64,000 nucleotides of DNA from Flectobacillus major DSM 103. GTDB taxonomy: Bacteria; Bacteroidota; Bacteroidia; Cytophagales; Spirosomataceae. Location: assembly GCF_000427405.1 (NCBI RefSeq), contig NZ_ATXY01000004.1, positions 1 through 64,000 of the forward strand, read 5' to 3'. The translations under genes and the position numbers were made by a program. Positions 14,091 to 45,311 of this stretch are shown here, piece by piece. The notes under the pieces were generated by a model. It made no database searches, was not told the DNA's origin, and worked only from the letters and a program-made list of their open reading frames with translations. The stretch's first letter is position 1. Each line of letters opens with the position of its first letter.

Positions 14091-14529
14091 ATTGGTTATG
14101 AGTTAAAAATGGAGTCGTCCCAATTTTTAGTTGGAAACTATTTTTTACTCGACAAAATTAAGCCCCTAATATTACCTAATTATTACTCGCTGATTAATAT
14201 TAAATTAACTGAAATATATATTATTAAGTTTCTGATTTTCAGGTGTTTGGTGGATTTTTTGCCTTTCTTGAAGGTTTGAGATGATTTTTAAATCAAGGTT
14301 TTGTAAGAAAGGAAAGGTATTTAATATATCCTTAATATTTAAAAAATATTGAGGATATATAGTGCCTTATTATTATCGTTATTCTGCAAAAGATAGGATA
14401 CTAAAGAATAGACATTATCGGCAAATATGTGATATGTGTAATATCTTTAGGGTATTGTGTAACACCAAGTATAGCGATTATCGTCACCTTTGTTTAATGA
14501 TTATGAATTAGTCATCTAAACAAAATATC
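14091..14529. other. Intergenic region between TonB receptor and stress island
   Basis: A 439-bp AT-rich divergent region. It must hold the minus-strand promoter of the TonB receptor (not recognised) and carries the tandem-repeat promoter of csbD at 14436-14492. No RNA gene or ORF of note was seen. Confidence 0.7.
14436..14492 (+). promoter_or_regulatory. Tandem-repeat stress promoter, copy A
   Basis: GTGTAAT at 14436-14442 and GTGTAAC at 14457-14463, starting exactly 21 bp apart, then CACCTTTG at 14485-14492 as the -7 box (TTTG 32 bp after the second repeat start). The same design is found at 19569, 22296 and 45256. The proximal repeat overlaps the -33 region, as expected for an activator that contacts RNA polymerase. 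Confidence 0.65.
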
Positions 14530-14754
14530 ATGAACAAAGCTCCAGAGAAAGTTGCTGAAACCTTTAAAATTACTGGCGATTGGTATAGCCAATCACAACA
14601 GCTAAAGGACAAATTTGCTCAGCTCACCGATGCCGACTTAAAATTTGAAGTAGGTAAAGAAGAAGCCCTGTTGAGTAGAGTAGAAAACCGATTAAATAAA
14701 AAGCGACAAGAAGTCATTAATATTATCAAAAAAGGTCAGCCTGCAAAAGATTAA
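14530..14754 (+). CDS. CsbD-like stress protein
   Basis: 74 residues. The core ITGDWYSQSQQLKDKFAQLT and ADLKFEVGKEEALLSRVENRLNKKRQEV matches the CsbD pattern (GxW, KGKLKQ, LTDDDL, GKxxELxGRLQxK). It is more divergent than the second copy at 16543. CsbD proteins are small helical general-stress proteins of unknown biochemical role. It has its own promoter (14436-14492) with the tandem 21-bp repeats and heads the stress island. Confidence 0.8.
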   Translation: MNKAPEKVAETFKITGDWYSQSQQLKDKFAQLTDADLKFEVGKEEALLSRVENRLNKKRQEVINIIKKGQPAKD

Positions 14755-14879
14755 GTTGTTTTGAAAGGATAGAAATTGTGGTATTTGATAAATAGTCACA
14801 AGCTATCCCGTAAAAGCAATGAAAGGACAGCTCTTCATAAGACTGTTCTTTTCACCATACAATTTTACCTCTTAATACA

Positions 14880-15218
14880 TTGGAAAATTCAGAATTGGAA
14901 AAATCTAAAACCTTTATTATCGTCGAAATTATTGAATATATTCCTAATTCGGTCGTAATAAAAACTATTATTCGTAAAACAACGGGTAATGTATCTGCTG
15001 TTTCTTTTGATTCTGGAGAAGCTTTATCGGGGAAAATATCGGCATTTGATACATTTATTCAGGTAATAGACGGGCAGGCAGAAGTTGAAATAGACGGTAA
15101 ATCTAGTTTACTCGAAACAGGGCAAGCCATTATTATTCCTGCACACAAGTCTAGCACCATAAAGGCCAACGTGCGATTCAAGATGCTCTCTACTATTATT
15201 AAAAGTGGATATGAATGA
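14880..15218 (+). CDS. Small cupin-domain protein
   Basis: 112 residues forming a single cupin barrel: AFDTFIQVIDGQAEVEIDGK (about 59-78) is motif 1-like and LLETGQAIIIPAHKSSTIKA (about 81-100) is motif 2-like. The usual metal-binding histidines are mostly missing, since only the His in IIPAHKS remains, so it may be a binding protein rather than an enzyme. The reading frame starts with TTG at 14880 and there is no ATG near it. It lies between stress genes on the same strand. Confidence 0.75.
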   Translation: MENSELEKSKTFIIVEIIEYIPNSVVIKTIIRKTTGNVSAVSFDSGEALSGKISAFDTFIQVIDGQAEVEIDGKSSLLETGQAIIIPAHKSSTIKANVRFKMLSTIIKSGYE

Positions 15219-15302
15219 CCTTTGCTAGCTAAAAAACTAGCGAATATTGTTTCGTAACTATGGCTATATATATAATCTATTACACAATTAAAATACATTA
15301 CA

Positions 15303-15569
15303 ATGAAATCAAATAAAATATTTCTTAGCATATTGGCGGCTTTGGCGGCTGGTACTTTAATAGGCATTATTATAGCCCCAGAAAAAGGTAGTATCACAAG
15401 AAAGAATATTGTTGGAAAAGGCGAAGACTACCTCGACGAACTAAAAGACAAATACGAAGGTATTTTGGAAGTTATCAACAAAAAAGTACAAAGTACCTGG
15501 AACGAGGCTGAAGAGTTGGTGGCTAAAAATAAAGCTAACTTAGAAGACCACAAGAATATAAGCCTTTGA
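15303..15569 (+). CDS. YtxH-domain membrane-anchored stress protein
   Basis: 88 residues. One N-terminal membrane segment (about 5-25, with LAALAAGTLIGIIIAPEKG, the YtxH signature in which a glycine-rich helix ends in APxxG) and a charged amphipathic helical tail. YtxH proteins are found next to CsbD and BON proteins in general-stress clusters of Bacteroidota. The biochemical role is unknown. Next gene starts 51 bases downstream. Confidence 0.85.
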   Translation: MKSNKIFLSILAALAAGTLIGIIIAPEKGSITRKNIVGKGEDYLDELKDKYEGILEVINKKVQSTWNEAEELVAKNKANLEDHKNISL

Positions 15570-15620
15570 ATATAAGAGTTTTGTATTCGTTATAGTAAAA
15601 TATAAATTAAGAGATTTCTG

Positions 15621-15962
15621 ATGAACAACAACGCAACATCAATAGAAACGCTTTGCGAAAAAGCCGAAGATTATACCAAAACTACGATAGCATTATTTAG
15701 GCTTCGTACAATCGCTAAATCGGCTGATATAGTATCATCTTTGGCTGTTCAACTGCTTCTTGCTATTGTTGTTGCAATGGTTGTTTTGATGTTAACTGTC
15801 GGTGTAGCATTTTGGCTAGGCGAAGCCCTAGGAAAAATTTACTATGGCTTTTTTGTGGTAGCAGGTGTTTATGCTGTGGGTGCTATTATACTTTATATTC
15901 TGCGACGTCAATGGATTAAAGTGCCTATTAGCAACATTGTAATTGAGAATATGTTAAAATAA
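15621..15962 (+). CDS. Phage-holin-like (holin superfamily III type) membrane protein
   Basis: 113 residues with two membrane helices (about 37-62 and 70-95) between a short N-terminal amphipathic helix and a basic end. The layout is that of the Phage_holin_3_6 / putative Holin-X proteins that accompany YtxH genes in many bacteria. There is no phage context here; a role in the envelope under stress is likely. The next gene starts 6 bases after its stop, so these genes are cotranscribed. Confidence 0.75.
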   Translation: MNNNATSIETLCEKAEDYTKTTIALFRLRTIAKSADIVSSLAVQLLLAIVVAMVVLMLTVGVAFWLGEALGKIYYGFFVVAGVYAVGAIILYILRRQWIKVPISNIVIENMLK

Positions 15963-15968
15963 AAAAGT

Positions 15969-16394
15969 ATGAAAACCCCAAGCGAAACTGACGTATTGAA
16001 CGAAATGATTATTTTGTTGCACAACAAGCAAGTACAAGATTTACAGGCTTTGAAACAACAAACGGCTCAAATCTATGAAAATATGCAACCTATCAATATT
16101 CTGAAAAATACCTTTCAGGAAGTGGGCGTTGTACCCGACCTAAAAAACAATATTCTCAATACCATTATTGGACTAACAACTGGGTATATTTCTAAAAAAA
16201 TTATCATAGGCAATTCTCATAATCCCATTAAGAGAATACTAGGTACGATTTTAGAATTTACAATTGCCAATGTTGTCGCCAAAAATTCTACCAAAATTAT
16301 AACTGTTGTCGAAGCCTTGGTAAGTCAAGTTGCGACCTATAATAGTAAACCCAAAGACAAACTGCCCTCCGGGGGGGGGGGGATTGTGAATTAG
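15969..16394 (+). CDS. Small protein of the YtxH/holin gene group, with poly-G tract near its end
   Basis: 141 residues. The N-terminal half is an amphipathic helix (EMIILLHNKQVQDLQALKQQ), the middle is weakly hydrophobic (NNILNTIIGLTTGYISKKII and ILGTILEFTIANVVA) and could be a peripheral membrane part. I do not recognise a named family. It follows the holin-like gene with 6 bases and is probably part of the same transcript. A run of 12 G at 16371-16382 encodes the GGGG just before the stop, so slippage would change the end of the protein. Confidence 0.7.
   Translation: MKTPSETDVLNEMIILLHNKQVQDLQALKQQTAQIYENMQPINILKNTFQEVGVVPDLKNNILNTIIGLTTGYISKKIIIGNSHNPIKRILGTILEFTIANVVAKNSTKIITVVEALVSQVATYNSKPKDKLPSGGGGIVN
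16371..16382 (+). repeat. Homopolymer of 12 G near the 3' end of a gene
   Basis: G12 in otherwise AT-rich DNA. With 12 G the protein ends SGGGGIVN. With 13 G it would run on for 11 more residues (DCELVNWKVWI). With 11 G it would end SGGGGL. It is either a slippage site or a base-calling artefact. Confidence 0.7.
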
Positions 16395-16542
16395 TGAACT
16401 GGAAAGTATGGATTTAGATAATAAATATTGAAAATACCAATTGGTGAATATAAAATAGAACTTGATTTATTTACTAATCACTCAATCACAACTATCAGCT
16501 TTGTAATGTGATAATTTTTCAACATTTTAAATAGAAAATACT

Positions 16543-16728
16543 ATGAACACAATTGAAATTGAGGGTAATTGGGAAGAGCAAAAAGGAAAGCTAAAACAAA
16601 TGTTTGCTATCTTAACAGACGATGATTTGATGTTTGAGAAGGGTAAAAAACAAGAAATGTTGGGCAAGCTTCAGACCAAAGTAGGAAAAACCAAAGAGGA
16701 ATTTGACAAAATGATGTCGCAGTTGTAA
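16543..16728 (+). CDS. CsbD family stress protein
   Basis: 61 residues, a textbook CsbD: EGNWEEQKGKLKQMF, LTDDDLMFEKGKKQEMLGKL and KVGKTKEEFDKMM. This is the full usual length of the family. It is the second csbD in the island and closer to the consensus than the one at 14530. The BON-domain gene follows 32 bases later on the same strand. In other bacteria csbD is driven by general-stress sigma factors; the regulator here is unknown. Confidence 0.93.
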   Translation: MNTIEIEGNWEEQKGKLKQMFAILTDDDLMFEKGKKQEMLGKLQTKVGKTKEEFDKMMSQL

Positions 16729-16760
16729 TCAATTCTATTTCTTCCAAAACACCGAAACCA

Positions 16761-17423
16761 ATGAAAAGGAATGAAACGCTTCAAAAAGACGTTCAAGATG
16801 CCATTAAATGGGAACCATTATTGAATGCTGCCGAAATTGGGGTTACAGCCAAAGATGGTATTGTTACACTTTCTGGCGTGGTTGATAGCTATGCCAAAAA
16901 ATCGGAAGCAGAATATGCTACCAAAAATGTAACGGGTGTAAGGGCTATCGTCGAGAATATTACTATCAAGTTTGATACTACTGGCCAAAAAGATGATGCC
17001 GATATTGCCAAAGATGTAGTTAATGCTCTTGGCTGGAGCTGGGCTGTACCAAAAGATAGAGTACAGGTAAAAGTAGAAGAGGGCTGGGTAACTTTGGAAG
17101 GTGAACTTTTCTGGAATTATGAAAAACAAGCTGCTCAAAAAGCTATCAAAGATATTGTCGGTATTACAGGGGTTACCAATGGCATCAAGATTAAGTCGGA
17201 AACCCATGATGAAATCGAAAAAAAGAATATCGAAAATGCTCTTATCCGCAACTGGTCTGTTGATAATCAGGACATTATCGTAAATGTATTGGGTAATACC
17301 GTTACCCTTACTGGAACGGTACGTTCTTTATACCAAAAAGATGAAGCCGAACGTATGGCATGGAATGCCCCTGGGGTATGGACTGTCAATAACGAATTAA
17401 CAGTAGAATATAATGACGATTAG
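16761..17423 (+). CDS. BON-domain protein (OsmY-like)
   Basis: 220 residues with three BON domains in a row, at about 6-72 (ITVTAKDGIVTLSGVV-type core with VTGVRAIVENI), 82-147 (VKVEEGWVTLEGELFW, GITGVTNGIKI) and 152-217 (VNVLGNTVTLTGTV, APGVWTVNNELTV). OsmY-like proteins bind membranes or phospholipids and help the envelope under osmotic stress. There is no signal peptide, so this one appears cytoplasmic, unlike E. coli OsmY. It follows csbD in the same direction and is closed by a terminator. Confidence 0.93.
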   Translation: MKRNETLQKDVQDAIKWEPLLNAAEIGVTAKDGIVTLSGVVDSYAKKSEAEYATKNVTGVRAIVENITIKFDTTGQKDDADIAKDVVNALGWSWAVPKDRVQVKVEEGWVTLEGELFWNYEKQAAQKAIKDIVGITGVTNGIKIKSETHDEIEKKNIENALIRNWSVDNQDIIVNVLGNTVTLTGTVRSLYQKDEAERMAWNAPGVWTVNNELTVEYNDD

Positions 17424-17433
17424 AGGGTTGGCT

Positions 17434-17466
17434 AAAAATGGGATAGTATATACTTTCCCGTTTTTA
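17434..17466 (+). terminator. Terminator after the BON-domain gene
   Basis: A 10-bp stem with one U-G pair (AAAAATGGGA at 17434-17443 with TCCCGTTTTT at 17456-17465) and a 12-base loop, with the T run in the right arm. Confidence 0.7.
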
Positions 17467-17669
17467 TTATGCACTATATAATCTTCATTTTTGATGTATT
17501 TATTGCCTATCAAAATACAGGTAATGGTTTGATTAAAAGGAATATAGCTGACATAATCAGAAGTGTGATTTATACAATATTTTACGGTAAATATGTAATA
17601 GCAATCTGATGAAATTAGGCCAACCATGTATCATGGTTATGTAGCCAACCAATAAACCTAATTGAATAA

Positions 17670-17849
17670 ATGGGAAAAAGACTATCTGGAAAAGTCAGAA
17701 TACTGCCAGCTCTTTGTTTCCTAATACCATATCTAGTAGTAGGATATATACTACATAAGTCTGTTAATATAAAATCAATATGCCTATTGACTTTACTGAT
17801 ACATACTACTACAACGATATGCCCAAAAATAGAACTTGTTTATGAATAA
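17670..17849 (+). CDS. Possible small membrane protein
   Basis: An open frame of 59 codons from ATG, in the otherwise empty 17467-17906 stretch. Two hydrophobic segments (ILPALCFLIPYLVVGYIL and SICLLTLLIHTTTTI) and a basic N-terminus would give a small two-helix membrane protein. No family recognised and no clear promoter, so this may be chance. Confidence 0.3.
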   Translation: MGKRLSGKVRILPALCFLIPYLVVGYILHKSVNIKSICLLTLLIHTTTTICPKIELVYE

Positions 17850-17906
17850 TTAAAAGCAATAGTTTCGCACCTATTGTTTTCAACATATTACCCTTACTAA
17901 ATAGAA

Positions 17907-18350
17907 TTGATGAAAAAAATACTATTACCCCTAGGACTGAGTTTACTTATGGTACTTACAATGATAGTCAGTTGTATCAATACCCCCGCTCAGCGAGTAC
18001 GAAATGCCCAAAACAAAGTGGTTGAAGCCAACAAAGATTTGAATAAGGCCAATGAAGAATATGTAGCCGATATTCAAAATTATCGCCATGAAATAGCTGA
18101 TAAAATCTTGGAAAACAACCAAAGTATAGCTAAGCTCAATGCTCAGAAGAAACTAGGCCAAGCCCCCGACAATATTGAGTACAACCAAAAAGTAGCCGAC
18201 CTTGAGCAAAAAAATAATGAGATGAGAGTCAAGTTAGATAATTATAAGCTCGAAGGCAAAGACCAATGGCAAGTTTTCAAAACCAAATTTAGCCAAGATA
18301 TGGACAACCTCGGAACGGCAGTTAAAACGTTAGTATCCAAAATTAAATAA
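17907..18350 (+). CDS. Coiled-coil stress lipoprotein, paralogue 1
   Basis: 147 residues. A lipoprotein signal (MIVSC, lipidated Cys at about residue 23), then a long charged helix (KVVEANKDLNKANEEYVADIQ), and a conserved end with WQVFKTKFSQDMDNLGTAV. The second copy at 22593 has the same layout and the same end (WGIFKQNFNRDMDALGKSI). This end recalls the sll1863-type stress-response proteins, a tentative assignment. It is probably anchored to a membrane and exposed to the periplasm. Function unknown. It has its own transcription unit between the BON and OMP genes. Confidence 0.75.
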   Translation: MMKKILLPLGLSLLMVLTMIVSCINTPAQRVRNAQNKVVEANKDLNKANEEYVADIQNYRHEIADKILENNQSIAKLNAQKKLGQAPDNIEYNQKVADLEQKNNEMRVKLDNYKLEGKDQWQVFKTKFSQDMDNLGTAVKTLVSKIK

Positions 18351-18535
18351 TCAAGCATTTTTTGTAATATTCTTATAATGAGTGTATTATATGTATATTT
18401 TGTTTTTTGATATTATATAATATACCAACTATGCTATTATTGATAAGTATTAGTGCAAAGTTTAGTACTCATATTTAATCACTCATTTATCTAGTTCTGA
18501 ACACCTATACACGATAAAACTAATTCAATACAAAA

Positions 18536-19174
18536 ATGAAAAAAGTAACTTTAATGTTTGCGATGTTATTGGCTGCAACCAGCTATATCAATGCCCAAGA
18601 TAGTAGCGATAAGCGTGACAACATCATGTTTGGTCTAAAAGCTGGTACAAATTACTCTAATGTGTATGACTCACAAGGAGAGGCATTCAATGCCAATGCA
18701 AAATATGGAGTAGCCGCAGGGGTATATTTAGGGATTCCGTTTGGTAAATTAATTGGAATTCAGCCAGAAGTACTCTTTTCGCAGAAGGGTTTCCAAGCAA
18801 CAGGAAAAATCCTAGGTAGTACTTATGATTTTACTCGTACTACTTCTTATATAGATGTGCCTATTTTCTTAGCTATCAAACCCATCAAATTTATTACTAT
18901 TTTGGCAGGCCCGCAGTTTTCTTATTTAATCAAACAGAAAGATGTATTTGCCGATGGAACAACAACGGTTGCACAAGAAACAGAATTTAGTAATGATAAC
19001 CTTCGCAAAAATATTATGTGTTTTGTTGGAGGTGTCGACATAAACCTAAATCACCTTGTGATAGGGGCTAGAGCTGGTTGGGATGTACAAAACAACAGTG
19101 GTTCGGGTAGTTCAACTACCCCTCGTTATAAAAATGCTTGGTTACAAGCTACGATTGGTTTTAACTTATATTGA
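18536..19174 (+). CDS. Outer membrane beta-barrel protein (PF13568-like porin family)
   Basis: 212 residues. Signal peptide to about residue 20 (SYINAQ). The mature part has eight amphipathic strands (FGLKAGTNYSNVYD, YGVAAGVYLGIPF, IGIQPEVLFSQKGF, SYIDVPIFLAIKP, ITILAGPQFSYLI, VGGVDINLNHLVIGARAGWD, YKNAWLQATIGFNLY), which is the small outer-membrane barrel type common in Bacteroidota. The last residue is aromatic. It may be a structural or adaptor OMP that is made under stress; no substrate can be deduced. Confidence 0.88.
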   Translation: MKKVTLMFAMLLAATSYINAQDSSDKRDNIMFGLKAGTNYSNVYDSQGEAFNANAKYGVAAGVYLGIPFGKLIGIQPEVLFSQKGFQATGKILGSTYDFTRTTSYIDVPIFLAIKPIKFITILAGPQFSYLIKQKDVFADGTTTVAQETEFSNDNLRKNIMCFVGGVDINLNHLVIGARAGWDVQNNSGSGSSTTPRYKNAWLQATIGFNLY

Positions 19175-19190
19175 TGAATAGGGGCGTTTG

Positions 19191-19224
19191 ACCAACTAAC
19201 GTATATAAATTTGAGTTAGTTGGT
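19191..19224 (+). terminator. Hairpin after the OMP gene (weak terminator)
   Basis: Perfect 10-bp stem, ACCAACTAAC at 19191-19200 with GTTAGTTGGT at 19215-19224, 17 bases after the OMP stop. No T run follows, so termination is uncertain. Confidence 0.4.
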
Positions 19225-19509
19225 TATACTCATAGTTCATATAATAGGCTATTGGTTTGAATAGTAATAGCTAGAAAACACTTTATGCCATCTGCCTAAA
19301 TGAGAGAATGGGTTGTTTTACTCAAAAAACTACAACTTTATGTTACAACCCTTATTTTTTAAATAATTAATGATGAAATAGTTAATATGTTTATTGGTTA
19401 GATAGCAATATCGTGAATGCTTTAATCTACGATATTCAATTTCCAGTACATCAATAACTAATTCTATCAAAGTCTTTATCAATTAAGCAAAACAGTGTGA
19501 AGAGAGATG

Positions 19510-19545
19510 AAATCGTTCTGTACTATTACGGAACGATTTTTTGTG
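19510..19545 (+). terminator. Rho-independent terminator in the 19.2-19.8 kb intergenic region
   Basis: A 13-bp stem with one wobble pair (AAATCGTTC at 19510-19518 with GAACGATTT at 19531-19539, extended inward) and a 4-base loop, followed by TTTT. It lies 336 bases after the OMP stop, with no annotated gene in between, so it either ends a long 3' UTR or an unrecognised RNA. Confidence 0.7.
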
Positions 19546-19568
19546 TTGTCGGCTCTTATCTGTGAATT

Positions 19569-19624
19569 ATATAACTATCTATATGTATTATGTAACGTCA
19601 TTTGGGCAGAAATCAGCAACTTTA
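19569..19624 (+). promoter_or_regulatory. Tandem-repeat stress promoter, copy B
   Basis: ATATAAC at 19569-19575 and ATGTAAC at 19590-19596 (21 bp apart), then CAACTTTA at 19617-19624 as the -7 box, 31 bp from the second repeat start to TTTA. The last base deviates from TTTG. It would drive the GT4-toroid gene through a long leader. Confidence 0.6.
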
Positions 19625-19798
19625 CTTAATATCATAACTGAGCCACTAATTACTAAAAATAGCTTTAAGCAAGAATAAGAATATCTTTCCTGAATTAAAT
19701 GTAAAAATCTGTATAACAGAATGTTATATTTTTTGGGCTAGTAAGCTTTAGCTTATGTAATCTTCATTATTAATTAGTCATTACTAAATTCGGAAAAG

Positions 19799-22159
19799 GT
19801 GAGAAAGAGAATAGCCATAAACCATACCAATAATGTGACCGTTGAAGGAGCGATTGAAGTTTTTTCAACACAAAACCAACAGGACATCGCAGCCATAGAG
19901 TCGTCATTACCAGAAATACTGTTTGTAACATCGTATCCACCTCGTGAGTGTGGTATTGCCACATATTCGCAGGATTTGGTAAAAGCCCTCAACAATAAAT
20001 TTAACCATTCATTTTCGTTGAAAGTGTGTGCTTTAGAATCGGAAAGCGAGCAGCACCATTATCCCAAAGAGGTAAAATATATACTAAATACCAGTGTACC
20101 AAAGGCTTTTGTGAAATTAGCTAAAAAAATCAACGAAGATACCACCATCCAAATTGTCATGATTCAGCATGAGTTTGGCTTCTTTGATAGTACCAAAGAT
20201 GAATTTTTGTTATTCCAGAGCCTCCTTACCAAGCCCATTGTCATTGTGTTTCATACGGTGCTACCATTGCCTCAATTGTCCTTAAAAACACACGTTCAGC
20301 AGGTGGCTAGTACAGCGGCGGCAGTGATTGTAATGACCCATTTTTCATCGGATGTCCTCATCAATGATTATGATATTCTTCCCGAAAAAATTACAGTAAT
20401 TCCGCATGGCACACACCTAGTACCTCATGCCGACCAAGAATTACTAAAGGTCAAATACGATTTGTCCGGAAAAACCGTACTTTCTACTTTTGGTTTATTG
20501 AGTTCGGGCAAAAGTATAGAAACAACTTTAGAGGCACTTCCTGCTATTATAGAGCATAATCCCGACGTGCTTTTCTTAATAATTGGAAAAACACACCCTT
20601 CGGTAGTAAAGCGTGAGGGCGAAAAATATCGACAAATGCTTGAACATAAAGCATCGGCACTCCATTTAGAAAAACACGTGCGATTTATCAATGCTTTTCT
20701 GCCCCTCGATACCCTACTCGAATATTTGCAGCTTACTGATATTTATCTGTTTACTTCTAAAGACCCCAACCAAGCCGTAAGTGGTACGTTCTCGTATGCT
20801 ATTAGCTGTGGTTGTCCTATTATTTCTACACCTATTCCTCACGCACGTGAAGTTTTACAAAATGATGCAGGAATTATTATAGACTTTGAAAACGCCGAGC
20901 AATTGACCTATGCCGTCAATAGCTTAATCAGCGATGCTGCTTTGCGAAAAAGTATTAGCTCTAACGGACTCCACCGAATGGCCTCTACGGCTTGGGAAAA
21001 TGCCGCTATTGCTCATGCTATTCTTTTTGAAGGCATTAGCAACGAACATATTACCTTACATTATCATATTCCTGTTATAAACCTTGACCATATCAAGAAA
21101 ATGACCACCAATTTTGGTATGATTCAGTTTGCCCAGATTAATCATCCCGATATTGATACAGGCTATACCCTCGACGACAACGCACGGGCTATGGTGGCTT
21201 TATGTCAACACTTTGAGCTTACCAACGACCCCGCCGATATACCTTATATCAGTACCTATTTTAATTTTATTAAGTTTTGTTTACAGCCCGAAGGCTATTT
21301 CCTCAATTATGTCGACGAGCAATTTACCTTTACTGAGCAAAACCACGCTACCAATTTGGCCGACTCCAACGGTCGAGCTATTTGGGCTTTGGGCTATCTG
21401 ATTTCTGTTGGAAATCTGTTGCCTCACAAGCTGATTGCCGAAGCAGAGGCTACATTACAAAGCACTTTGGACAATATTAGCAAGATTCACTCTACTCGTG
21501 CTATGGCTTTTGCTATCAAGGGTTTATTTTATGCTAATAGCAAAAACGGAACTTATCAAAACCTTCCGTTTATAGAAAAACTAGCCAATAGACTCGTACA
21601 AATGTACCGTCATGAGTCTAGTAGCGAATGGGAATGGTTTGAAAGCTATTTAACCTACGCCAACAGTATTTTGCCCGAAGCTATGTTATGTGCTTGGCTT
21701 GCCACGGGTAATCCAATTTACAAATCAATAGCCAAATCTTCGTTTGACTTTTTGTTATCCAAAACCTTCCGTGACGATAGCATTAAAGTAATTTCAAATA
21801 AAAGTTGGTTACAAAAAGGCGAAGAACAATTTCCGCCAGCTATTGGTGGCGAACAGCCCATTGATATTGCCTATACGATTTTGGCACTCAGCAAATTTTA
21901 TGGTGTGTTCAAAGAAGAAGAGTATATGAAAAAAATGGAAACCTCGTTCAATTGGTTTTTAGGGAATAACCATTTGCACCAAATTATCTATAATCCTTGT
22001 ACAGGGGGCTGTTATGATGGGCTAGAAGAAACGTCTGTTAATCTTAACCAAGGAGCTGAATCTACAGTGAGTTACCTAATGGCACGATTAACCATCGAAA
22101 AATCATTTAAAAATAGCTTAATTGATTCTTTGCAAGAAGAAGACTCTCTACAAATTTGA
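19799..22159 (+). CDS. Two-domain protein: GT4 glycosyltransferase fused to an alpha/alpha-toroid domain
   Basis: 786 residues. The N-terminal part (about 38-410) is a GT-B glycosyltransferase of the GT4 type: PPRECGIATYSQDLVKAL (start of the acceptor domain), VIPHGTH, the donor domain from STFGLLSSGKSIETTLEAL, and the ISCGCPIISTPIPHAREVL plus GIIIDFENAEQL segment with the EX7E region altered. The C-terminal part (about 430-770) is helical with paired-helix repeats (YTLDDNARAMVALCQHFEL, NGRAIWALGYLISVGN, EWEWFESYLTYANSILPEAML, GGEQPIDIAYTILALSKFY), as in alpha/alpha-toroid glycoside hydrolases. Such fusions occur with GH130 genes (one is at 46107). No signal peptide, so cytosolic. The start is GTG; no ATG is available in frame before residue 100. 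Confidence 0.85.
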   Translation: MRKRIAINHTNNVTVEGAIEVFSTQNQQDIAAIESSLPEILFVTSYPPRECGIATYSQDLVKALNNKFNHSFSLKVCALESESEQHHYPKEVKYILNTSVPKAFVKLAKKINEDTTIQIVMIQHEFGFFDSTKDEFLLFQSLLTKPIVIVFHTVLPLPQLSLKTHVQQVASTAAAVIVMTHFSSDVLINDYDILPEKITVIPHGTHLVPHADQELLKVKYDLSGKTVLSTFGLLSSGKSIETTLEALPAIIEHNPDVLFLIIGKTHPSVVKREGEKYRQMLEHKASALHLEKHVRFINAFLPLDTLLEYLQLTDIYLFTSKDPNQAVSGTFSYAISCGCPIISTPIPHAREVLQNDAGIIIDFENAEQLTYAVNSLISDAALRKSISSNGLHRMASTAWENAAIAHAILFEGISNEHITLHYHIPVINLDHIKKMTTNFGMIQFAQINHPDIDTGYTLDDNARAMVALCQHFELTNDPADIPYISTYFNFIKFCLQPEGYFLNYVDEQFTFTEQNHATNLADSNGRAIWALGYLISVGNLLPHKLIAEAEATLQSTLDNISKIHSTRAMAFAIKGLFYANSKNGTYQNLPFIEKLANRLVQMYRHESSSEWEWFESYLTYANSILPEAMLCAWLATGNPIYKSIAKSSFDFLLSKTFRDDSIKVISNKSWLQKGEEQFPPAIGGEQPIDIAYTILALSKFYGVFKEEEYMKKMETSFNWFLGNNHLHQIIYNPCTGGCYDGLEETSVNLNQGAESTVSYLMARLTIEKSFKNSLIDSLQEEDSLQI

Positions 22160-22295
22160 GTAATCTCAATAATTTGATGAATTGCTGATACATCCATCAA
22201 GCAAAATCTGCCATTTGCGGTTTTGTTTGATTATTAGTTTTTTATATACAATTTAATACATGGTATATCTATTAAAGAAGGCCAATGTGTGAATT

Positions 22296-22352
22296 ATGTA
22301 ACTTATAACAAGGTTTGTGTAACACTTTAGCCAAGTTAAAAGCTCAACTTTG
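22296..22352 (+). promoter_or_regulatory. Tandem-repeat stress promoter, copy C
   Basis: ATGTAAC at 22296-22302 and GTGTAAC at 22317-22323 (21 bp apart), then CAACTTTG at 22345-22352, with 32 bp from the second repeat start to TTTG. The leader to the ATG at 22389 would be about 32 bases. This is the clearest of the four copies. Confidence 0.68.
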
Positions 22353-22388
22353 TAGAGTAGAACTTCTAAACCCCTTAGAACAAACTGT

Positions 22389-22544
22389 ATGAGTAATCTT
22401 CTTTATGTTATCGCAATTATTTTAGTTATTATTTGGGCAACAGGCTTTTTTGGCTTTCACGGAGGAAATATTCTTCACATTCTTTTGGTCATTGCTGTGG
22501 TAGCCGTATTACTACGGATTATCAGAGGAAAGGGCTCTCTTTAA
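22389..22544 (+). CDS. lmo0937-family small membrane protein
   Basis: 51 residues. Two hydrophobic helices (LYVIAIILVIIWATGFFGF and ILHILLVIAVVAVLLRII) joined by a HGGN turn and a short basic end (RGKGSL). The sequence IIWATGFFGF-HGGNILHILLVIAV is the characteristic pattern of the lmo0937 family of stress-associated membrane peptides, which are widespread in Bacteroidota and Firmicutes. It has its own tandem-repeat promoter and is followed after 48 bases by the coiled-coil lipoprotein, so the two are probably cotranscribed. Confidence 0.88.
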   Translation: MSNLLYVIAIILVIIWATGFFGFHGGNILHILLVIAVVAVLLRIIRGKGSL

Positions 22545-22592
22545 GGATTATCGTATTATTTCAAAATATCAAAAATTAAACCAAAGTAAGCA

Positions 22593-23054
22593 ATGAAAAT
22601 CCAACACTTTAATATAGTTCTTCTTACCTTTCTAGCCATTATAGGCTTGACAAACTGTAATACTTCGCCCGAGAAAAAAGAAGCAAAAGTAGAAGAAGCT
22701 AAAGCCGATGTTGTTGAAGCTACCAAAGATCTACAACAAGCTCGCTCGGATTCTGTTAATGAGTATCGTAAATACAAGGTTGAAGCCGAAACTAGGCTCG
22801 CCGAAAATGAACGTATAATCGGTGAGATTGAAGAAAAACTCAAAACCGAAGATGCCAAAACTCGTGCATCATTAGAAAAAGACTTAAATGTACTTAATCA
22901 GAAAAATGCGGATTTGAAATTCAAAATCCAAAATTATGAAGAAGGTCCTAAAGAAAAATGGGGCATATTTAAGCAAAATTTCAATCGTGATATGGATGCC
23001 TTAGGCAAGTCGATATCTTCATTGGCCGAAAAAAACATGAAAAAAAATAAATAG
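22593..23054 (+). CDS. Coiled-coil stress lipoprotein, paralogue 2
   Basis: 153 residues. Lipoprotein signal (GLTNC, Cys22), then a long alternating-charge helix (EKKEAKVEEAKADVVEATKD, then ETRLAENERIIGEIEEKL) and the end WGIFKQNFNRDMDALGKSI, shared with the protein at 17907. The layout and the end suggest a common family, possibly the sll1863-type stress proteins. It lies directly after the lmo0937-type gene and closes that short operon, with a terminator 103 bases downstream. Confidence 0.78.
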   Translation: MKIQHFNIVLLTFLAIIGLTNCNTSPEKKEAKVEEAKADVVEATKDLQQARSDSVNEYRKYKVEAETRLAENERIIGEIEEKLKTEDAKTRASLEKDLNVLNQKNADLKFKIQNYEEGPKEKWGIFKQNFNRDMDALGKSISSLAEKNMKKNK

Positions 23055-23156
23055 AAAATGTTTTTGTTGTGGTGACAAAAAGCAAGTGAACCCTCATAAA
23101 CGAAAGTGTTTGTGGCAAAGGTTCTTAATACTTAATCAATATTCCTTGTAGTACAT

Positions 23157-23203
23157 AAACCTTATTTTGATTCAATTTTGTTGGATTAAGATAAGGTTTT
23201 TTT
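23157..23203 (+). terminator. Terminator after coiled-coil lipoprotein 2
   Basis: A 9-bp outer stem (AAACCTTAT at 23157-23165 with ATAAGGTTT at 23191-23199), continued inward by further imperfect pairs, and seven T at the end. Confidence 0.75.
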
Positions 23204-23341
23204 GCAACAGCCCGCTTCATATCAGTCCTATCTCAAATTATGATAGTTGTTATTTTTTGTGCAGAAATCAAATAATTCAGCTACTTTGTGGCATCAAGGT
23301 TTTTGTCAAAAACTAAAGCAACAATCCATCTGATGTAAACT

Positions 23342-25849: not shown

Positions 25850-25891
25850 TGGAGTAATGTGTTGGTTGTCAGTGTAGTATGGCGTTTAGGT

Positions 25892-34470: not shown

Positions 34471-34580
34471 ATTTATTCATCAATTAGATTACAAATTCGT
34501 TTTTTGTATCAGAGTAAAAAATATAAGTAAAAAGTGGTTAGGTAAATAAGAATGCTGAGTAATAGCTGTACCTTATTTCA

Positions 34581-37865: not shown

Positions 37866-37868
37866 CGG

Positions 37869-39269: not shown

Positions 39270-39408
39270 AGTTTTTACAGTGATTTAAAGACTAAATAGA
39301 GCTAGCTTTAGATTGATACAATTTTAGCTAAAATGTTGATGGAGCGATAATAACCAAAGTGAGGGTATCAATCGTGGGAAAAGTCTCTATTTAATCGTGT
39401 GATTCCTC

Positions 39409-39442
39409 AAATTTTAAAGAAGATTTTGAGGAGATTTTGAAG
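39409..39442. promoter_or_regulatory. 11-bp direct repeats, likely response-regulator site near the efflux promoter
   Basis: AGATTTTGAGG (39421-39431) and AGATTTTGAAG (39432-39442) are directly adjacent repeats with an 11-bp period; AAATTTTAAAG at 39409-39419 is a weaker third unit. OmpR/PhoB-type regulators bind such direct repeats. The regulator encoded at 39685 belongs to that family. Confidence 0.45.
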
Positions 39443-39640
39443 TTGATAATAAAATTTATTTCAAAATAGCTACATCTTGTATTATATTGCCGATTTGTTA
39501 ATTGTTCAATATAATTATAATTTTATTTTTTTACATAAAAGCAAGTCTATCAATATGATTTATATTGGTATGATTTTAATAATTACAGTAAGTTTCTGAA
39601 AATCAATATTTTATATTAAAGCCTATTAGTAATTCAAAAA

Positions 39641-39662
39641 TCTTCAAATTTTCTTCAAAAAG
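39641..39662 (+). promoter_or_regulatory. 11-bp direct repeats near the response-regulator start
   Basis: TCTTCAAATTT (39641-39651) and TCTTCAAAAAG (39652-39662), in the opposite orientation to the set at 39409 (shared core CTTCAAA). They lie just before the regulator gene and may mediate autoregulation. Confidence 0.4.
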
Positions 39663-39684
39663 AATTTTGAATTTTGACCCCAAT

Positions 39685-40368
39685 ATGAAAATACTCGTAA
39701 TAGAAGATAATACAGAACTGGCTAGAAATCTCCAGCAGTTTCTCAGCAAAGAAGGCATAATTTGCGAATTTTGCTATACTTATCAGCAGGCAGAGGATAG
39801 ACTTCTGTCATTTGACTACGACTGTGTGGTATTGGATATTATGCTACCCGATGGCAATGGACTTGATATACTGAAGCTTATTAAAAAAAATAGACTTCAG
39901 AGTAATATTCTTATCATTTCGGCCAAAAACTCGCTTGACGATAAGATCAATGGTTTGGAATTGGGGGCAGACGACTATTTGACCAAACCTTTTCACTTGT
40001 CGGAACTACTGGCTAGGCTGAGGGCTATTTATCGAAGAAATGTATTGGGGGGCGACAATATTGTGGTTTTTAATGAGCTAACTATCAATACCTTAACCCA
40101 TGAAGTAAAAGTACACGATACATTGTTGGATTTGACCAAAAAGGAGTTTGATTTGTTGGTGTATTTTTTGGCGAATAAAAATAGGGTTATTACTCGCCAG
40201 TCAATTGCCGAACACTTGTGGGGCGATTATACCGACAACCTAGCTAATTTTGATTTTGTGTATCAGCACGTAAAAAATTTGCGAAAAAAAATTAGTGCTT
40301 CCAATGGTAAAGACTATATTGGTACGGTGTATGGGCTTGGTTATAAGTTTGAAACCAATCCAAAATAA
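39685..40368 (+). CDS. OmpR-family response regulator
   Basis: 227 residues from ATG at 39685 (MKILVIEDN). Receiver domain about 1-120 with the acidic pair in IEDN, phosphorylation Asp in CVVLDIMLPDG and Lys in DDYLTKPFHLSEL. Winged-helix DNA-binding domain about 130-225 (NELTINTLTHEVKVHDTLLDLTKKEFDLLVYF, ITRQSIAEHLWGDY, VKNLRKKI, GTVYGLGYKFE). It pairs with the kinase gene 104 bases downstream and probably controls the divergent efflux operon. An upstream TTG at 39667 would add 6 residues. Confidence 0.93.
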   Translation: MKILVIEDNTELARNLQQFLSKEGIICEFCYTYQQAEDRLLSFDYDCVVLDIMLPDGNGLDILKLIKKNRLQSNILIISAKNSLDDKINGLELGADDYLTKPFHLSELLARLRAIYRRNVLGGDNIVVFNELTINTLTHEVKVHDTLLDLTKKEFDLLVYFLANKNRVITRQSIAEHLWGDYTDNLANFDFVYQHVKNLRKKISASNGKDYIGTVYGLGYKFETNPK

Positions 40369-40472
40369 AGGATTGATTATAATAGCTTCCTCAAAAAGGT
40401 ATTGTATTTTCAAAAAGCTATTATTGCCTAAATATAAAAAGCTCATTTTCAACTATATAGTTGTTCAATAAT

Positions 40473-41774
40473 ATGAAACTCATCAATAAATTTACGTCTT
40501 GGTATCTTGCTATTTCGGCCTTTGTTTTACTGGCAGGTGGAATTCTTACGTTTTATAGTTTTGAATCACATATTGAAATTGCCCAAGCCAAAGAACAAGA
40601 AAAGTTGCTGAGACATATTTGTCAGAAAATAGAAAAAGGTGTTCCTGCCGAAAAATTGGTGCGAGAACAACTTCAAATTCGAGAAATACCTTATTCGTTG
40701 CCTATTCAAAAAGTTACTTTGTCCGATACAATTGCTTGGAGTCCACAGCTGCAAAGAGTAGATAAACAAATTAAGGCAGCGGCTTCGTACAAAATACAAG
40801 GCAAACACTATTACATATCGGTGTACAACATGATGATCAATGCCGATGATGTAACACAAGTTGTATTTGAGTCGATGTTAGAAATATTCTTATTGCTAAT
40901 TTTATTACTCGGCATTTTTTTACGTTTAGGCTCAGAAAGAATATTAGCCCCTTTTAATCATACCCTTGAAGTAATTCACCGTTTTTCACTCAAACAAAAG
41001 CAAACCATTGTTTTGCCAGAAAGCAATACCACCGAGTTTCAGGAGCTAAACCATTTTTTACAAAAAATGATGAATAAAGCCATCTGTGACTACAATTCGT
41101 TAAAAGAATTTTCGGAGAACGCTTCGCACGAACTACAAACCCCCTTAGCTATTATTCAAGGAAAATTGGAGCTTTTGATGCAATCCAATATCAACGACGA
41201 ACAAGCTACCCTTATCCTAACGGCTTTGAATGCCCTTGACAAGCTTACCAAAACCAACCAGTCGCTGATATTATTGACCAAACTCGAAAATCAAGAATAT
41301 GAAAGTATCAAAGAAATAGACTTTAGTGAGCTTATCAAGGAATCTATCGAGGGTTTTGAGGAACTCCTCGAAATGAAGTCTATTCAACTAGAACAAGATA
41401 TAGAAGATAACGTATCCTTGCGTTTGCATCCTGTGTTGGCCAGTATTTTACTCAATAACCTATTTAGTAATGCTATTCGGCACAACATTTGCCAAGGCAA
41501 TATCATTGTTAAATTAACGCCTTCAAAACTGTATATCCAGAATTCGGGAACGCCACCTACTGTACCTACCAAAGAGCTATTCCGCAGATTCAAAAAAGGA
41601 AATCCTGATTCTATTGGCTTAGGCTTGTCGATTGTACAACAAATTTGCGAGCTTCATTTTTTTGATATTCAATACGATTATCAAGACGGCTCACATAGGT
41701 TTGTGGTGTGTTTTAAAAATGCCAAAACCAATCGAGAAAATCAGTTTATTGAACATTCGAGCCTAGACGTGTAG
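40473..41774 (+). CDS. Sensor histidine kinase
   Basis: 433 residues from ATG at 40473. Two membrane helices (about 9-29 and 135-158) enclose a periplasmic domain of about 105 residues (30-134) that could sense envelope signals or the pump substrate. HAMP-like linker, then H-box FSENASHELQTPLAIIQGKLELL (about 215-237), N-box LLNNLFSNAIRHN and G-box GLGLSIVQQICELH. The N-box to G-box part is short but complete. It forms a two-component system with the upstream regulator. An upstream TTG is possible but adds only 4 residues. Confidence 0.93.
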   Translation: MKLINKFTSWYLAISAFVLLAGGILTFYSFESHIEIAQAKEQEKLLRHICQKIEKGVPAEKLVREQLQIREIPYSLPIQKVTLSDTIAWSPQLQRVDKQIKAAASYKIQGKHYYISVYNMMINADDVTQVVFESMLEIFLLLILLLGIFLRLGSERILAPFNHTLEVIHRFSLKQKQTIVLPESNTTEFQELNHFLQKMMNKAICDYNSLKEFSENASHELQTPLAIIQGKLELLMQSNINDEQATLILTALNALDKLTKTNQSLILLTKLENQEYESIKEIDFSELIKESIEGFEELLEMKSIQLEQDIEDNVSLRLHPVLASILLNNLFSNAIRHNICQGNIIVKLTPSKLYIQNSGTPPTVPTKELFRRFKKGNPDSIGLGLSIVQQICELHFFDIQYDYQDGSHRFVVCFKNAKTNRENQFIEHSSLDV

Positions 41775-41959
41775 CTTATACCGATTTAATGCCTAAATTA
41801 GGTATTAAAATAATGACAATCAGTCAAATACACTGCCTATTTGTTTTTCTGATTATTTGACATTTTTTAGCATAAGTTTTTCTGCCATAGTTATCTACAA
41901 ATCGTACTGGCCTTTTAGCCCTCCGATTTTGTACAATTACTTATTAAACCAACTATAAT

Positions 41960-44455
41960 ATGTTTAACAATACCTTTGGCATAACAGGTTTAACAAAAAA
42001 ACAGGTAGCTACAGCACGTAAAAAGCACGGTACGAATACTTTAACTTATAAAAAAGAGAATAATTTTTGGACTGCCCTCACAAATTTGGCAAAAGAACCC
42101 ATGGTGATTTTGTTGTTTGTGGCATCGTGTATTTATCTTATTAGTGGAAAATGGGGCGATAGCTTTTTTTTAGCTTCAGCTTTGGTGCTAGAATGTGCCA
42201 TTTCGCTTTATCAAGATTCTAGAAGTAGAAATGCTTTGGAAAAACTCAAAGATATTACACAGCCTAATTGTAAGGTAATACGAGATGGAAAAATAGTAGC
42301 AATTAAAAGCGAAGAAATCGTACTTGGCGACAACCTCCTGACAGAAGAAGGAGCGTTGATTGCTGCCGATGGTATTATTGTTCATGCCAATGATTTTTCG
42401 GTTAATGAATCTATTCTTACAGGCGAATCTTTACCAGTTATAAAAGATACCCCCTCCGATCAAAATGCTGTATTTCAGGGGGCTATGGTAGCTAGTGGCT
42501 TGGCAATTGTGCGTGTTACGGCAATCGGCAACCAAACCAAGCTTGGCAAAATAGGAAAAAGCCTAGAGGGTATTCAAGAAGAAAAAACACCCTTAGAACT
42601 TCAAATAACCAACTTTGTCAAGAAAATGGCCTTTAGTGGGCTAATCGTCTTTGTTATTTTTTGGGCTATCAATTACTATCACTCGCACAATATTTTGGAT
42701 AGCCTATTGAAAGCGTTGACGTTGGCCATGAGTATTTTGCCCGAAGAAATTCCCATTGCATTTACTACTTTTATGGCAATTGGAGCTTGGCGTTTGATGA
42801 ACATGGGTATTGTGGTAAAACAAATGAAAACAGTAGAAACACTGGGTAGTGCTACTGTAATTTGTACCGATAAAACAGGGACACTTACCGAAAACAAAAT
42901 GAGTTTGGCCAAAGTGTTTGCCTTGTCGACAGGGCGGATTTCGGAAAGTAATGTAGCTTTTACCGAACAAGAAAAAGAAGTGTTGTCATTGGCTGTATGG
43001 GCTAGCGAGGTTTTGCCATTCGACCCTATGGAAATAGCCTTGCATACTGCCTATTCCGACTTTGTAGAACACGACCAACGGCCTGCATATAGCATTATTC
43101 ATGAATATGCATTGACTGGAAAGCCCCCTATGATGACTCATATTTTTGAGAATGAATCAAATCACCGTATTATTGCCGCCAAGGGTGCTCCCGAAGCCCT
43201 TATTGCAGCCTCAAGTCTAAACGAGATTCAAAAACAACAAATATATAAAGCCATCAATACTTTGGCAGTAGACGGCTATCGAGTATTGGGCGTTGCTGAA
43301 GCCGTTTTTACAGGCTCAGATTTTCCAGAAAATCAACAAGATTTACCCTTTGAACTCAAAGGGTTAGTCGCTTTTTATGACCCACCCAAACACAATATTC
43401 AGGCTGTATTGAACGATTTTTATACGGCGGGTATTTCGGTCAAAATTATTACTGGCGACAACACCGCCACAACTACCGCTATTGCCAAGCAAATAGGGTT
43501 TAAGGGTTATGAAAATAGTATTACTGGCGACGAACTGATGCAGCTTTCAGACCATGAATTAGCCAAACAGGTTCAGCAAATCCAGTTATTTACTCGGATG
43601 TTTCCCGATGCCAAGTTGAGGGTAATCAATGCTTTGAAAGCCCAAAATGAGATTGTTGCTATGACAGGCGATGGAGTCAATGACGGCCCAGCCCTAAAAG
43701 CGGCTCATATAGGCATAGCCATGGGCAAAAAAGGTACAGAAATAGCCAAACAAGCAGCTTCTTTGATTTTGGTTGAAGATGATTTATCCAAAATGGTACA
43801 TGCTGTTGGGGTAGGAAGACGCATTTATGCCAATCTCAAAAAAGCAATTCAGTACATCATTTCTATTCATATTCCGATTATCCTTACGGTATTTATTCCG
43901 CTTACTTTGGGCTGGGCGTATCCCAATATTTTTTCACCAATCCATATTATTTTCTTAGAACTTATTATGGGGCCTACCTGCTCGATTATCTATGAAAATG
44001 AGCCTATGGAAAAAAATACCATGACCCAAAAACCAAGACCATTGACCAACACTTTTTTTAGTTGGAAAGAACTTACTACCAGTATGATACAAGGCTTGGT
44101 AATTACGACTGGAACATTGCTAGTGTATCTGTATGCCGTAAGCCAAAACGCTGGCGAAGAGATAACCCGTACAATGGTTTTTACGGTATTGATAGCCGCC
44201 AATATTTTTCTAACCTTGGTCAATCGCTCTTTTTACTATTCAATTTTTACTACATTACAATACAAAAACAACCTTGTTTGGTTGATTATTGGTATTACTG
44301 CTTCGCTAGCAGGAATAACACTTTTGGTAAAACCCGTTAGTGACTTCTTTGAGTTCAAGCAGTTAAGTGCCTTACAATTAGGAATTTGTGTGGTGATGGG
44401 CTTTGTATCTGTAATGTGGTATGAGCTGGTTAAATGGGTAAAAAGGATGCTTTGA
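41960..44455 (+). CDS. Cation-transporting P-type ATPase (P-II-like)
   Basis: 831 residues. N-terminal domain about 1-60, actuator LTGESLPVIKD near 155-165, M4 motif SILPEEIPIAFTTFMAIGAWRL (about 255-276), phosphorylation site CTDKTGTLTENK near 310, hinge GDGVNDGPALKAA near 572, and six C-terminal helices with FLELIMGPTCSIIYENEPMEKNTM. The PEEIP motif replaces the PEGLP of Ca2+-ATPases, so calcium is not certain; the family is seen in Bacteroidota stress loci. It is a second ATPase beside the Mg-type one at 23342. It has its own unit: no near upstream gene on this strand and a convergent regulator after it. Confidence 0.88.
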   Translation: MFNNTFGITGLTKKQVATARKKHGTNTLTYKKENNFWTALTNLAKEPMVILLFVASCIYLISGKWGDSFFLASALVLECAISLYQDSRSRNALEKLKDITQPNCKVIRDGKIVAIKSEEIVLGDNLLTEEGALIAADGIIVHANDFSVNESILTGESLPVIKDTPSDQNAVFQGAMVASGLAIVRVTAIGNQTKLGKIGKSLEGIQEEKTPLELQITNFVKKMAFSGLIVFVIFWAINYYHSHNILDSLLKALTLAMSILPEEIPIAFTTFMAIGAWRLMNMGIVVKQMKTVETLGSATVICTDKTGTLTENKMSLAKVFALSTGRISESNVAFTEQEKEVLSLAVWASEVLPFDPMEIALHTAYSDFVEHDQRPAYSIIHEYALTGKPPMMTHIFENESNHRIIAAKGAPEALIAASSLNEIQKQQIYKAINTLAVDGYRVLGVAEAVFTGSDFPENQQDLPFELKGLVAFYDPPKHNIQAVLNDFYTAGISVKIITGDNTATTTAIAKQIGFKGYENSITGDELMQLSDHELAKQVQQIQLFTRMFPDAKLRVINALKAQNEIVAMTGDGVNDGPALKAAHIGIAMGKKGTEIAKQAASLILVEDDLSKMVHAVGVGRRIYANLKKAIQYIISIHIPIILTVFIPLTLGWAYPNIFSPIHIIFLELIMGPTCSIIYENEPMEKNTMTQKPRPLTNTFFSWKELTTSMIQGLVITTGTLLVYLYAVSQNAGEEITRTMVFTVLIAANIFLTLVNRSFYYSIFTTLQYKNNLVWLIIGITASLAGITLLVKPVSDFFEFKQLSALQLGICVVMGFVSVMWYELVKWVKRML

Positions 44456-44501
44456 ATAAAGACAAAGGCAAGACTTAAATAAAAGTATGCACTACGCTTA
44501 C

Positions 44502-45074
44502 TTATATGTTGTTATTTTCTAAATTTTCTAAGTTGTTGCGTTTTTGTTTGAGTTGTTTGTAAAACGAGGGTGATAAACCCGTGATTTTTTTAAATTGATT
44601 AGATAAATGTGCAACACTACTGTAGTGGAGCTTATAAGATATTTCGGTTAAGTTCAGTTCATCGTACAGTAAAAGCTCTTTTACTTTTTCGATTTTATGA
44701 ACAATAATAAACTGCTGAATAGTGATACCTTTTACTTCCGAAAAAATATTGGAAAGATACGTATAGTCGTAGTTGAGTTTTTCACTGATATAATCCGAAT
44801 AATTGATTTTGGGGAGTTCGTCGGAATAATGAATCATTTCGATAACGACATTTTTTATCTTATCAATCAAGATACTTTTTTTGTCGTCGAGTAGCTCTAA
44901 GCCAGATTTTAGGAGGTTAATTTTTAATTTTGAATACTGTTGTTCTGTAATGTCTTCTAAGATTTCAACAACGCCTAGGTCGATTGAAACATGATGTAAG
45001 CCAAGTTTCAGGAGTTCTTCTTTGACTAACATTTTACAACGAAGACTAATCATATATTTAATATATAAAAGCAT
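44502..45074 (-). CDS. AraC-family regulator with HMA-like N-terminal domain
   Basis: 190 residues. Residues 1-60 (YIKYMISLRCKMLVKEELLK, VSIDLGVVEILEDIT) look like a heavy-metal-associated ferredoxin-type fold, in which the usual CxxC has become SLRC so only one Cys remains. The C-terminal AraC domain is about 90-185 (YISEKLNYDYTYLSNIFSE and NLTEISYKLHYSSVAHLSNQFKKITGLSPSFYKQL). Such proteins occur in Bacteroidota stress loci. The gene diverges from the tandem-repeat promoter at 45256, so it could bind such repeats, but that is inference. It lies convergent to the P-type ATPase at 41960. Confidence 0.85.
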   Translation of the reverse strand: MLLYIKYMISLRCKMLVKEELLKLGLHHVSIDLGVVEILEDITEQQYSKLKINLLKSGLELLDDKKSILIDKIKNVVIEMIHYSDELPKINYSDYISEKLNYDYTYLSNIFSEVKGITIQQFIIVHKIEKVKELLLYDELNLTEISYKLHYSSVAHLSNQFKKITGLSPSFYKQLKQKRNNLENLENNNI

Positions 45075-45255
45075 ATTTATAGGGGGGTGTGTATAAAGTA
45101 AGTATAGTACTTAAAGGTACATATAACTAAAAGAAATATACGACGAAACAATATTTATCATTTTTTTGGTATAATTTATTGATTTACAGTGTGTTGTTTT
45201 CATCGGTATACGTAGCTGTTTTATAGAAAAACAAAAATCCAATAATCAGTGATAT

Positions 45256-45311
45256 ATGTAACTTTTAGGGATAATTGTATAACATTATTGGCGATAATAG
45301 TACCATCTTTG
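45256..45311 (+). promoter_or_regulatory. Tandem-repeat stress promoter, copy D
   Basis: ATGTAAC at 45256-45262 and GTATAAC at 45277-45283 (21 bp apart), then CATCTTTG at 45304-45311, 31 bp from the second repeat to TTTG. It lies in the divergent region beside the HMA-AraC gene and before the small protein at 45356. Confidence 0.6.

Follow-up and report, generated by a model that had tools for sequence, protein, structure and literature searches.

AraC-type activators read operators in a 21-bp register, and such operators are a known kind: at araI1-I2, the direct repeat keeps this register next to the -35 region. LytTR proteins likewise bind direct repeats, with a register of about 21 bp. General stress regulons of the SigB or RpoS type presumably overlap in their kinds of target (CsbD, YtxH, OsmC, Dps/ferritin, OsmY/BON type) with the genes described below. 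No SigB or RpoS is known from Bacteroidota. For Flavobacterium psychrophilum, the sigma factors named in PMC9723704 are the primary one, sigma54 and seven of the ECF type, and the paper gives a -7 box, TAnnTTTG, at -12 to -5. This -7 box is shared with the promoters studied here and was used for their geometry; its passages on promoters describe sigma-factor motifs, not the present repeat, and a search of its main text found none of the terms "AraC", "direct repeat" and "CsbD". The open-licence literature, to which our search was confined (subscription papers lay outside it), yielded no paper on the operator motif or on a Bacteroidota regulon paired with HMA-AraC.

The circuit considered here was recognized in a 64,000-nt stretch of Flectobacillus major DSM 103 DNA (the window; contig NZ_ATXY01000004.1, positions 1 to 64,000). 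It shares with the AraC/XylS family a double helix-turn-helix (HTH) domain and a direct repeat in 21-bp register at the -33/-35 region. It differs from AraC in that the candidate regulator, HMA-AraC, has an HMA-like domain of about 65 residues instead of the arabinose/cupin-type domain, and in that the candidate targets are many and dispersed, with an operator that often overlaps or adjoins the regulator gene. Unlike control by SigB or RpoS, it implies no alternative sigma factor, since its promoters have a -7 box of modified housekeeping type. We consider it probable that the four window sites are copies of a widespread Bacteroidota activator operator which, bound by an HMA-AraC dimer, would drive small proteins of envelope or stress type.

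A scan of the whole window for RTRTAAY-N14-RTRTAAY gave matches at 14436, 19569, 22296 and 45256 (sites A to D), all on the + strand, and no further match inside the window; 100 dinucleotide shuffles gave a mean of 0.14 and a maximum of 1. The preliminary description had placed four sites here, with repeat starts 21 bp apart and a TTTG or TTTA 31-32 bp after the second repeat start, and was correct in both respects, the latter distance being 32 bp at A and C and 31 bp at B and D. Side-by-side comparison also brought out an upstream GTGAWWT common to all four, absent from that description. The longer form of the operator reads AAnGTGTGAATTATGTAAC-N11-AATTATGTAACAC, followed 20-21 bp on by a -7 box of the CAnCTTTG type, and sites A to D fit the extended pattern GTGAWWTRTRTAAY-N11-WTTRTRTAAC with zero mismatches. 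Site A (14429..14492, + strand; 42.1 bits) has its GTGA box at 14429, repeats at 14436 and 14457 and the -7 box CACCTTTG at 14485-14492. Site B (19562..19624, + strand; 42.0 bits) has repeats at 19569 and 19590 and the -7 box CAACTTTA at 19617-19624. Site C (22289..22352, + strand), with repeats at 22296 and 22317 and the -7 box CAACTTTG at 22345-22352, is the top-scoring operator match on its own plasmid (58.7 bits). Site D (45249..45311, + strand; 44.3 bits), with repeats at 45256 and 45277 and the -7 box CATCTTTG at 45304-45311, is divergent from the HMA-AraC gene, whose start lies 175 bp away. A weak fifth site, E (17558..17623, + strand; 27.8 bits), has no proper -7 box.

The genes behind these sites largely bear out the preliminary description. 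It had named csbD as the gene behind A: a CsbD-like ORF is indeed present (14530-14754, + strand), but stays under the curated cut-offs. Site A heads a + strand gene run comprising cupin (14880), YtxH (15303), holin-like (15621), CsbD (16543) and BON (16761) genes, and Pfam supports the YtxH, CsbD, BON, DUF5670 and OMP genes of the window. Site E precedes a short ORF (17670) and a lipoprotein ORF of sll1863 type (about 17907-18350). As that description had proposed, B precedes a gene for a GT4-type glycosyltransferase of 786 aa (19799..22159, + strand), C a gene for a membrane peptide of the lmo0937 family (22389..22544, + strand; NF033488, E 1.5e-15), and D a gene for a small membrane-type peptide of 51 aa (45356..45511, + strand). 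The lmo0937 gene is followed by an sll1863-like lipoprotein ORF (22593-23054) that falls below the cut-off. The peptide encoded behind D has no NCBIfam match and resembles the lmo0937 product behind C over 20 residues only, 9 of them identical. Membership of single genes shifts: in the congener G002, the GT4 ortholog lacks an operator, though the island there has four.

The preliminary description had also proposed scanning the genome with the repeat plus a CAnCTTTG box at 31-32 bp. The plain repeat by itself proved unspecific, while the four window sites are specific: RTRTAAY-N14-RTRTAAY occurs 17 times genome-wide as against 6 times for a reversed control, and none of the 13 matches outside the window has a -7 box at the right distance or is recovered by the operator model at E values up to 5. 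Seven of the 13 fall within ORFs of 100 aa or more. These 13 matches look like chance, and the plain pattern was dropped for genome scans; it had to be extended for specificity. With the operator model, the genome has seven sites at E<=0.01, five of them in the window, and the rest of the 132-kb plasmid has no match up to E 2. A scan with the extended pattern also gives a fifth own copy, on the chromosome. The chromosomal site at C6:3249009 (L184 9009-9081) lies ahead of a lipoprotein ORF; lipoproteins of similar appearance, likewise behind an operator, occur in G002 and G013. The seventh site, at about C6:1576211 (24.2 bits), consists of the second half-site and the -7 box only and is probably a partial match; it stands directly before an ORF for a CopA-type ATPase (identified by eye), which adjoins a paralogue of HMA-AraC.

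The operator is found throughout the class Bacteroidia. Allowing up to two mismatches, the extended pattern occurs at 22 places in 13 of 39 relatives (reversed control, 2), and of the 18 that lie outside the window, 13 are followed by a -7-type box, 20-21 bp past the second repeat. With up to one mismatch, 38 of 396 class genomes contain it, at 81 places in all (reversed control, 1), one pair of places in G294 being the same sequence on two contig ends. In a profile of 79 sites, positions that played no part in the search are conserved as well: A at -4 in 75 sites, T at 17 in 64 and A at 35 in 60. A sequence-only model (A1/R1) built from 72 of the 79 listed sites matched at E<=0.01 in 160 of the 396 Bacteroidia genomes, some of which had supplied training sites; about 4 would be expected from the E-value. 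Of the searches of the class, one scored up to 8 candidates per genome and the one with the model up to 12. In named genomes, an exact scan matched at least 117 stretches. Among the 80 loci listed, 77 are Bacteroidota by title (Flavobacterium, Mucilaginibacter, Emticicia, Lutibacter, Paludibacter, Maribellus, Draconibacterium and others), two come from one "uncultured bacterium" bin and one from an Ignavibacteriae bin.

The preliminary description would have been weakened by sites without a preference for promoters or by a freely varying spacing, and neither is what we found. Among the 139 sites of the 80 loci listed (up to two mismatches), 127 are followed by a -7-type box, as defined by a permissive pattern, at 20-22 bp from the second repeat. 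An ORF starts 50-400 bp away (median 102) in 114, and a single site falls within an ORF of more than 120 aa. As for spacing, of 19 TRTAAY pairs downstream of the AraC stop on the same strand, taken from 40 loci chosen by their AraC gene alone, 10 have a spacing of 21 bp, with no other value occurring twice.

In the 79-site profile, the operator resolves into four boxes, GTGTGA, TGTAAC, a weak box and TGTAAC, spaced about 9-11 bp apart. These would lie in consecutive major grooves along one side of the helix, as expected for two tandem AraC-type double-HTH domains. With the -7 box at -12 to -5 (PMC9723704), the second repeat would fall at about -40 to -33, where a -33 element would normally sit. 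As a rule, the first letter of the -7 box is C instead of T; G294, a genome without the AraC gene, has TAATTTTG. We envisage that an HMA-AraC dimer binds the two half-sites, 21 bp or two turns apart, on one DNA face, and that the half-site nearer the promoter stands in for the -33 element next to the -7 box. With C for the first T of that box and a half-site at -33, RNA polymerase would need the activator.

The same boxes allow another partition, in which dimers of CRP/FNR type would bind in tandem, one to each copy, the copies being imperfect TGTGA-N6-TAACA palindromes. The first copy, TGTGA-ATTATR-TAACT, suits such a protein, and its distance to the -7 box would presumably fit class II activation. 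The second copy, however, lacks the TGTGA half (0.17-1.03 bits at positions 20-24 vs 1.12-2.00 at -1 to 3), so that dyad symmetry is not found in each copy, and no CRP gene was noticed when the surroundings of the sites were read by eye. We regard this possibility as highly improbable. The direct-repeat operator in 21-bp register on one DNA face is what the sequences display, and HMA-AraC would be the protein binding there.

The HMA-AraC gene (44502..45074, - strand) encodes a protein of 190 aa with an HMA-like N-terminal and an AraC-type DNA-binding domain. The latter is a double-HTH domain by Pfam (PF12833, E 2e-16; also PF00165), and a Foldseek search with the AF2 model of the protein (mean pLDDT 90) matched its AraC-type fold to MarA, AraT and ToxT. 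The N-terminal domain has the ferredoxin-like beta-alpha-beta-beta-alpha-beta fold, with GolB and Atx1 as Foldseek matches (E 0.11-0.15; TM for the target 0.70-0.71); Pfam finds no HMA match in the protein at E 0.01. The metal-binding CxxC motif is absent, the window protein reading SLRC. In the operator-linked group, the first Cys of the motif is mostly gone from the HMA-like domain: 77% of 61 operator-linked sequences have Ser at position 10, as against Cys in 94% of 18 paralogues. The CxxC paralogues, such as G000 C6:1578835 on the chromosome of the same strain and one on plasmid pRUNSL02 of Runella slithyformis, have the same two-domain layout with about 40-50% identity, and differ in keeping the Cys at position 10. 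At L342 (1212-1263 and 3785-4372), the chromosomal paralogue lies beside the CopA-type ATPase ORF, as judged by eye; that of the R. slithyformis plasmid (L369) lies beside multicopper oxidase and RND efflux genes. Since both stand next to copper-type genes, the operator-linked group may descend from metal sensors. No operator was found beside CxxC paralogues at E<=0.01 in 20 paralogue loci; one match adjoining the AraC gene reaches E 0.16, and in 4 of the 20 an operator-like match at E<=0.01 occurs elsewhere within about 4 kb. In G150 and G396 (L152, L154), two genes of the same strand come after HMA-AraC, the first for a receiver-bearing PAS histidine kinase and the second for a single-domain response regulator, an order hinting at a phosphorelay in the same circuit.

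The preliminary description had read the repeat as an AraC-type site and singled out the gene at 44502 as the obvious candidate regulator. Both suggestions are supported by the co-occurrence of operator and gene, which makes HMA-AraC, on sequence grounds, the best candidate. The operator is present in 69 of 73 genomes with a close HMA-AraC (E<=1e-60) vs 31 of 181 without a homolog at E<=1e-25, and in 41 of 69 and 19 of 73 genomes of the two intermediate groups (Fisher 3e-27, kinship ignored here as in the other tests). Counted by genus, a close HMA-AraC goes with the operator in 58 of 62. At loci chosen by their AraC gene alone, all 11 with a close protein (at least 55% identity, a line fixed before the test) have an operator within 1.5 kb, vs 0 of 18 with a distant one (51% or less; Fisher 3e-8). 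Three of the 11 adjacent sites (G000, G013, G020) had trained the model; G002, G017, G024 and G040 had given it other sites, and G006, G014, G042 and G047 none. In 34 genomes with a close AraC and up to three sites, 24 have an operator within 400 bp of that gene at E<=0.5, and 22 at E<=0.01, a count based on 46 of 49 matches (the three weakest, below 10 bits, being left out) and on a set in which sites of G156, G274 and G380 were in the model. In 12 of these 34, the match extends into the gene at its 3' end. In 8 (L304, L307, L308, L316, L319, L320, L322, L326), the TGA stop of AraC is the TGA of the first operator box, so that the last codons and stop, often ...GAAAATGTG-TGA, double as the first box for the next gene. 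On a plasmid of Runella rosea, an ice-binding gene with two operator matches is divergent from the HMA-AraC gene.

Because AraC is itself a member of the regulon, linkage alone is no proof that it reads the operator. Seven genomes with 4-12 scored sites (G173, G180, G209, G251, G294, G362, G423) yielded no HMA-AraC in tblastn searches, nor did eight with 1-3 sites (G063, G117, G146, G304, G340, G383, G422, G445). Among the 55 genomes with at least four sites, AraC is close in 39, middle in 7 and distant or lacking in 9. Operator-rich genomes without a detectable HMA-AraC oblige us to consider a second binder, or a gene in missing DNA. Another Bacteroidota DNA-binding protein might read the operator, HMA-AraC being just a frequent regulon member or co-regulator. 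Pooled sites from genomes without HMA-AraC show the same base preferences, as such a protein would predict, and in some genomes the operator lies upstream of the AraC gene. We nonetheless think this unlikely: HMA-AraC was the only recurrent DNA-binding family when clustered ORFs from 40 island loci and the window were inspected by eye, distant HMA-AraC genes do not share the operator, and genomes with 1-3 sites usually have one beside AraC, which is unexpected for the target of a global regulator. A substitute sought near the sites in genomes without AraC gave nothing recurrent; in the response regulators encoded near sites, the only DNA-binding domains recognised were one of LuxR type (L143) and one LytTR (L139), neither recurrent. 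Three congeners (G001, G003, G004) have no close AraC, the best being 37-46% identical; at two mismatches, the pattern matches once in G001, with a -7 box at the right distance, once in G003, inside an ORF, and not at all in G004.

A LytTR regulator had been offered in the preliminary description as the alternative to an AraC-type activator. The genome has 44 LytTR matches, one of them on the same plasmid: a lone LytTR protein of 117 aa encoded beyond the window (G000 C4:81718-82071, L018; - strand), with a TGTAAC-like sequence upstream. This plasmid protein has no close ortholog in operator-rich genomes (44 genomes searched), and was rejected as the reader on that account; its best matches elsewhere are in congeners, at 44-47%, whether or not these have a close HMA-AraC, and G294, with at least 12 sites, has none. 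We also take the extra GTGTGA box, 9 bp upstream, to be foreign to the LytTR repeat consensus. Binding of these direct repeats by a regulator of LytTR type seems very hard to credit, and we retain HMA-AraC as the candidate reader.

The candidate targets were compiled from 319 distinct sites, with up to five following genes each and family names assigned by eye; those with 2-4 mismatches had to show a -7 box to be included. The commonest families are ice-binding-like DUF3494 proteins (59 genes in 35 loci), CsbD-like proteins (34) and OMP barrels (25), followed by sll1863-type lipoproteins (24), response regulators (24), HMA-AraC itself (22), histidine kinases (21), OmpA-like (21), YtxH-like (18) and lmo0937 (16) proteins. 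Pfam backs single examples of Ice_binding, DUF6600, OmpA, YceI, ferritin, OsmC and OMP_b-brl_2. HMA-AraC would switch on CsbD, lmo0937, YtxH, OMP, sll1863-type lipoproteins, ice-binding-like proteins and others, as well as its own gene in several genomes. The label "stress" derives from the kinds of target genes and should be read as provisional. What the sequences show directly is the operator with its conservation, geometry and targets, and its pairing with this AraC subfamily; from these we infer the binding and activation by HMA-AraC, its stress role and the existence of a signal.

On a wider scale, and with rather less than even confidence, these data may be taken to outline an undescribed, Bacteroidota-wide envelope or general stress regulon run by an HMA-fold AraC activator, with no alternative sigma factor. 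The activator would derive from a metal-sensing HMA-AraC through loss of the metal-binding Cys, its operator could overlap the regulator's stop codon, plasmids and islands would serve the circuit as vehicles, and some lineages would have kept the operator network after the regulator was lost, under another binder. The operator model, a named regulator family and the 319 distinct sites make the question of Bacteroidota stress regulation directly testable. If the proposal is true, CsbD, lmo0937, YtxH, DUF6600 and ice-binding-like DUF3494 proteins, all of little-known role, come under one control.

The lmo0937 upstream regions of relatives were also considered as orthologous promoters and set aside: among 30 loci (L022-L051), eleven of which were read with a TRTAAY listing, the exact 21-bp pair occurs only in the window's own L045, and a 2-mismatch operator copy in L034 lies elsewhere than the lmo0937 upstream region. 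Upstream of several relatives' lmo0937 genes (L022, L024, L028, L030 and other loci), the repeat is replaced, as judged by eye, by a sigma54-like -24/-12 element (TGGCAC or TGGTAT, 5 bp, TTTG-like).
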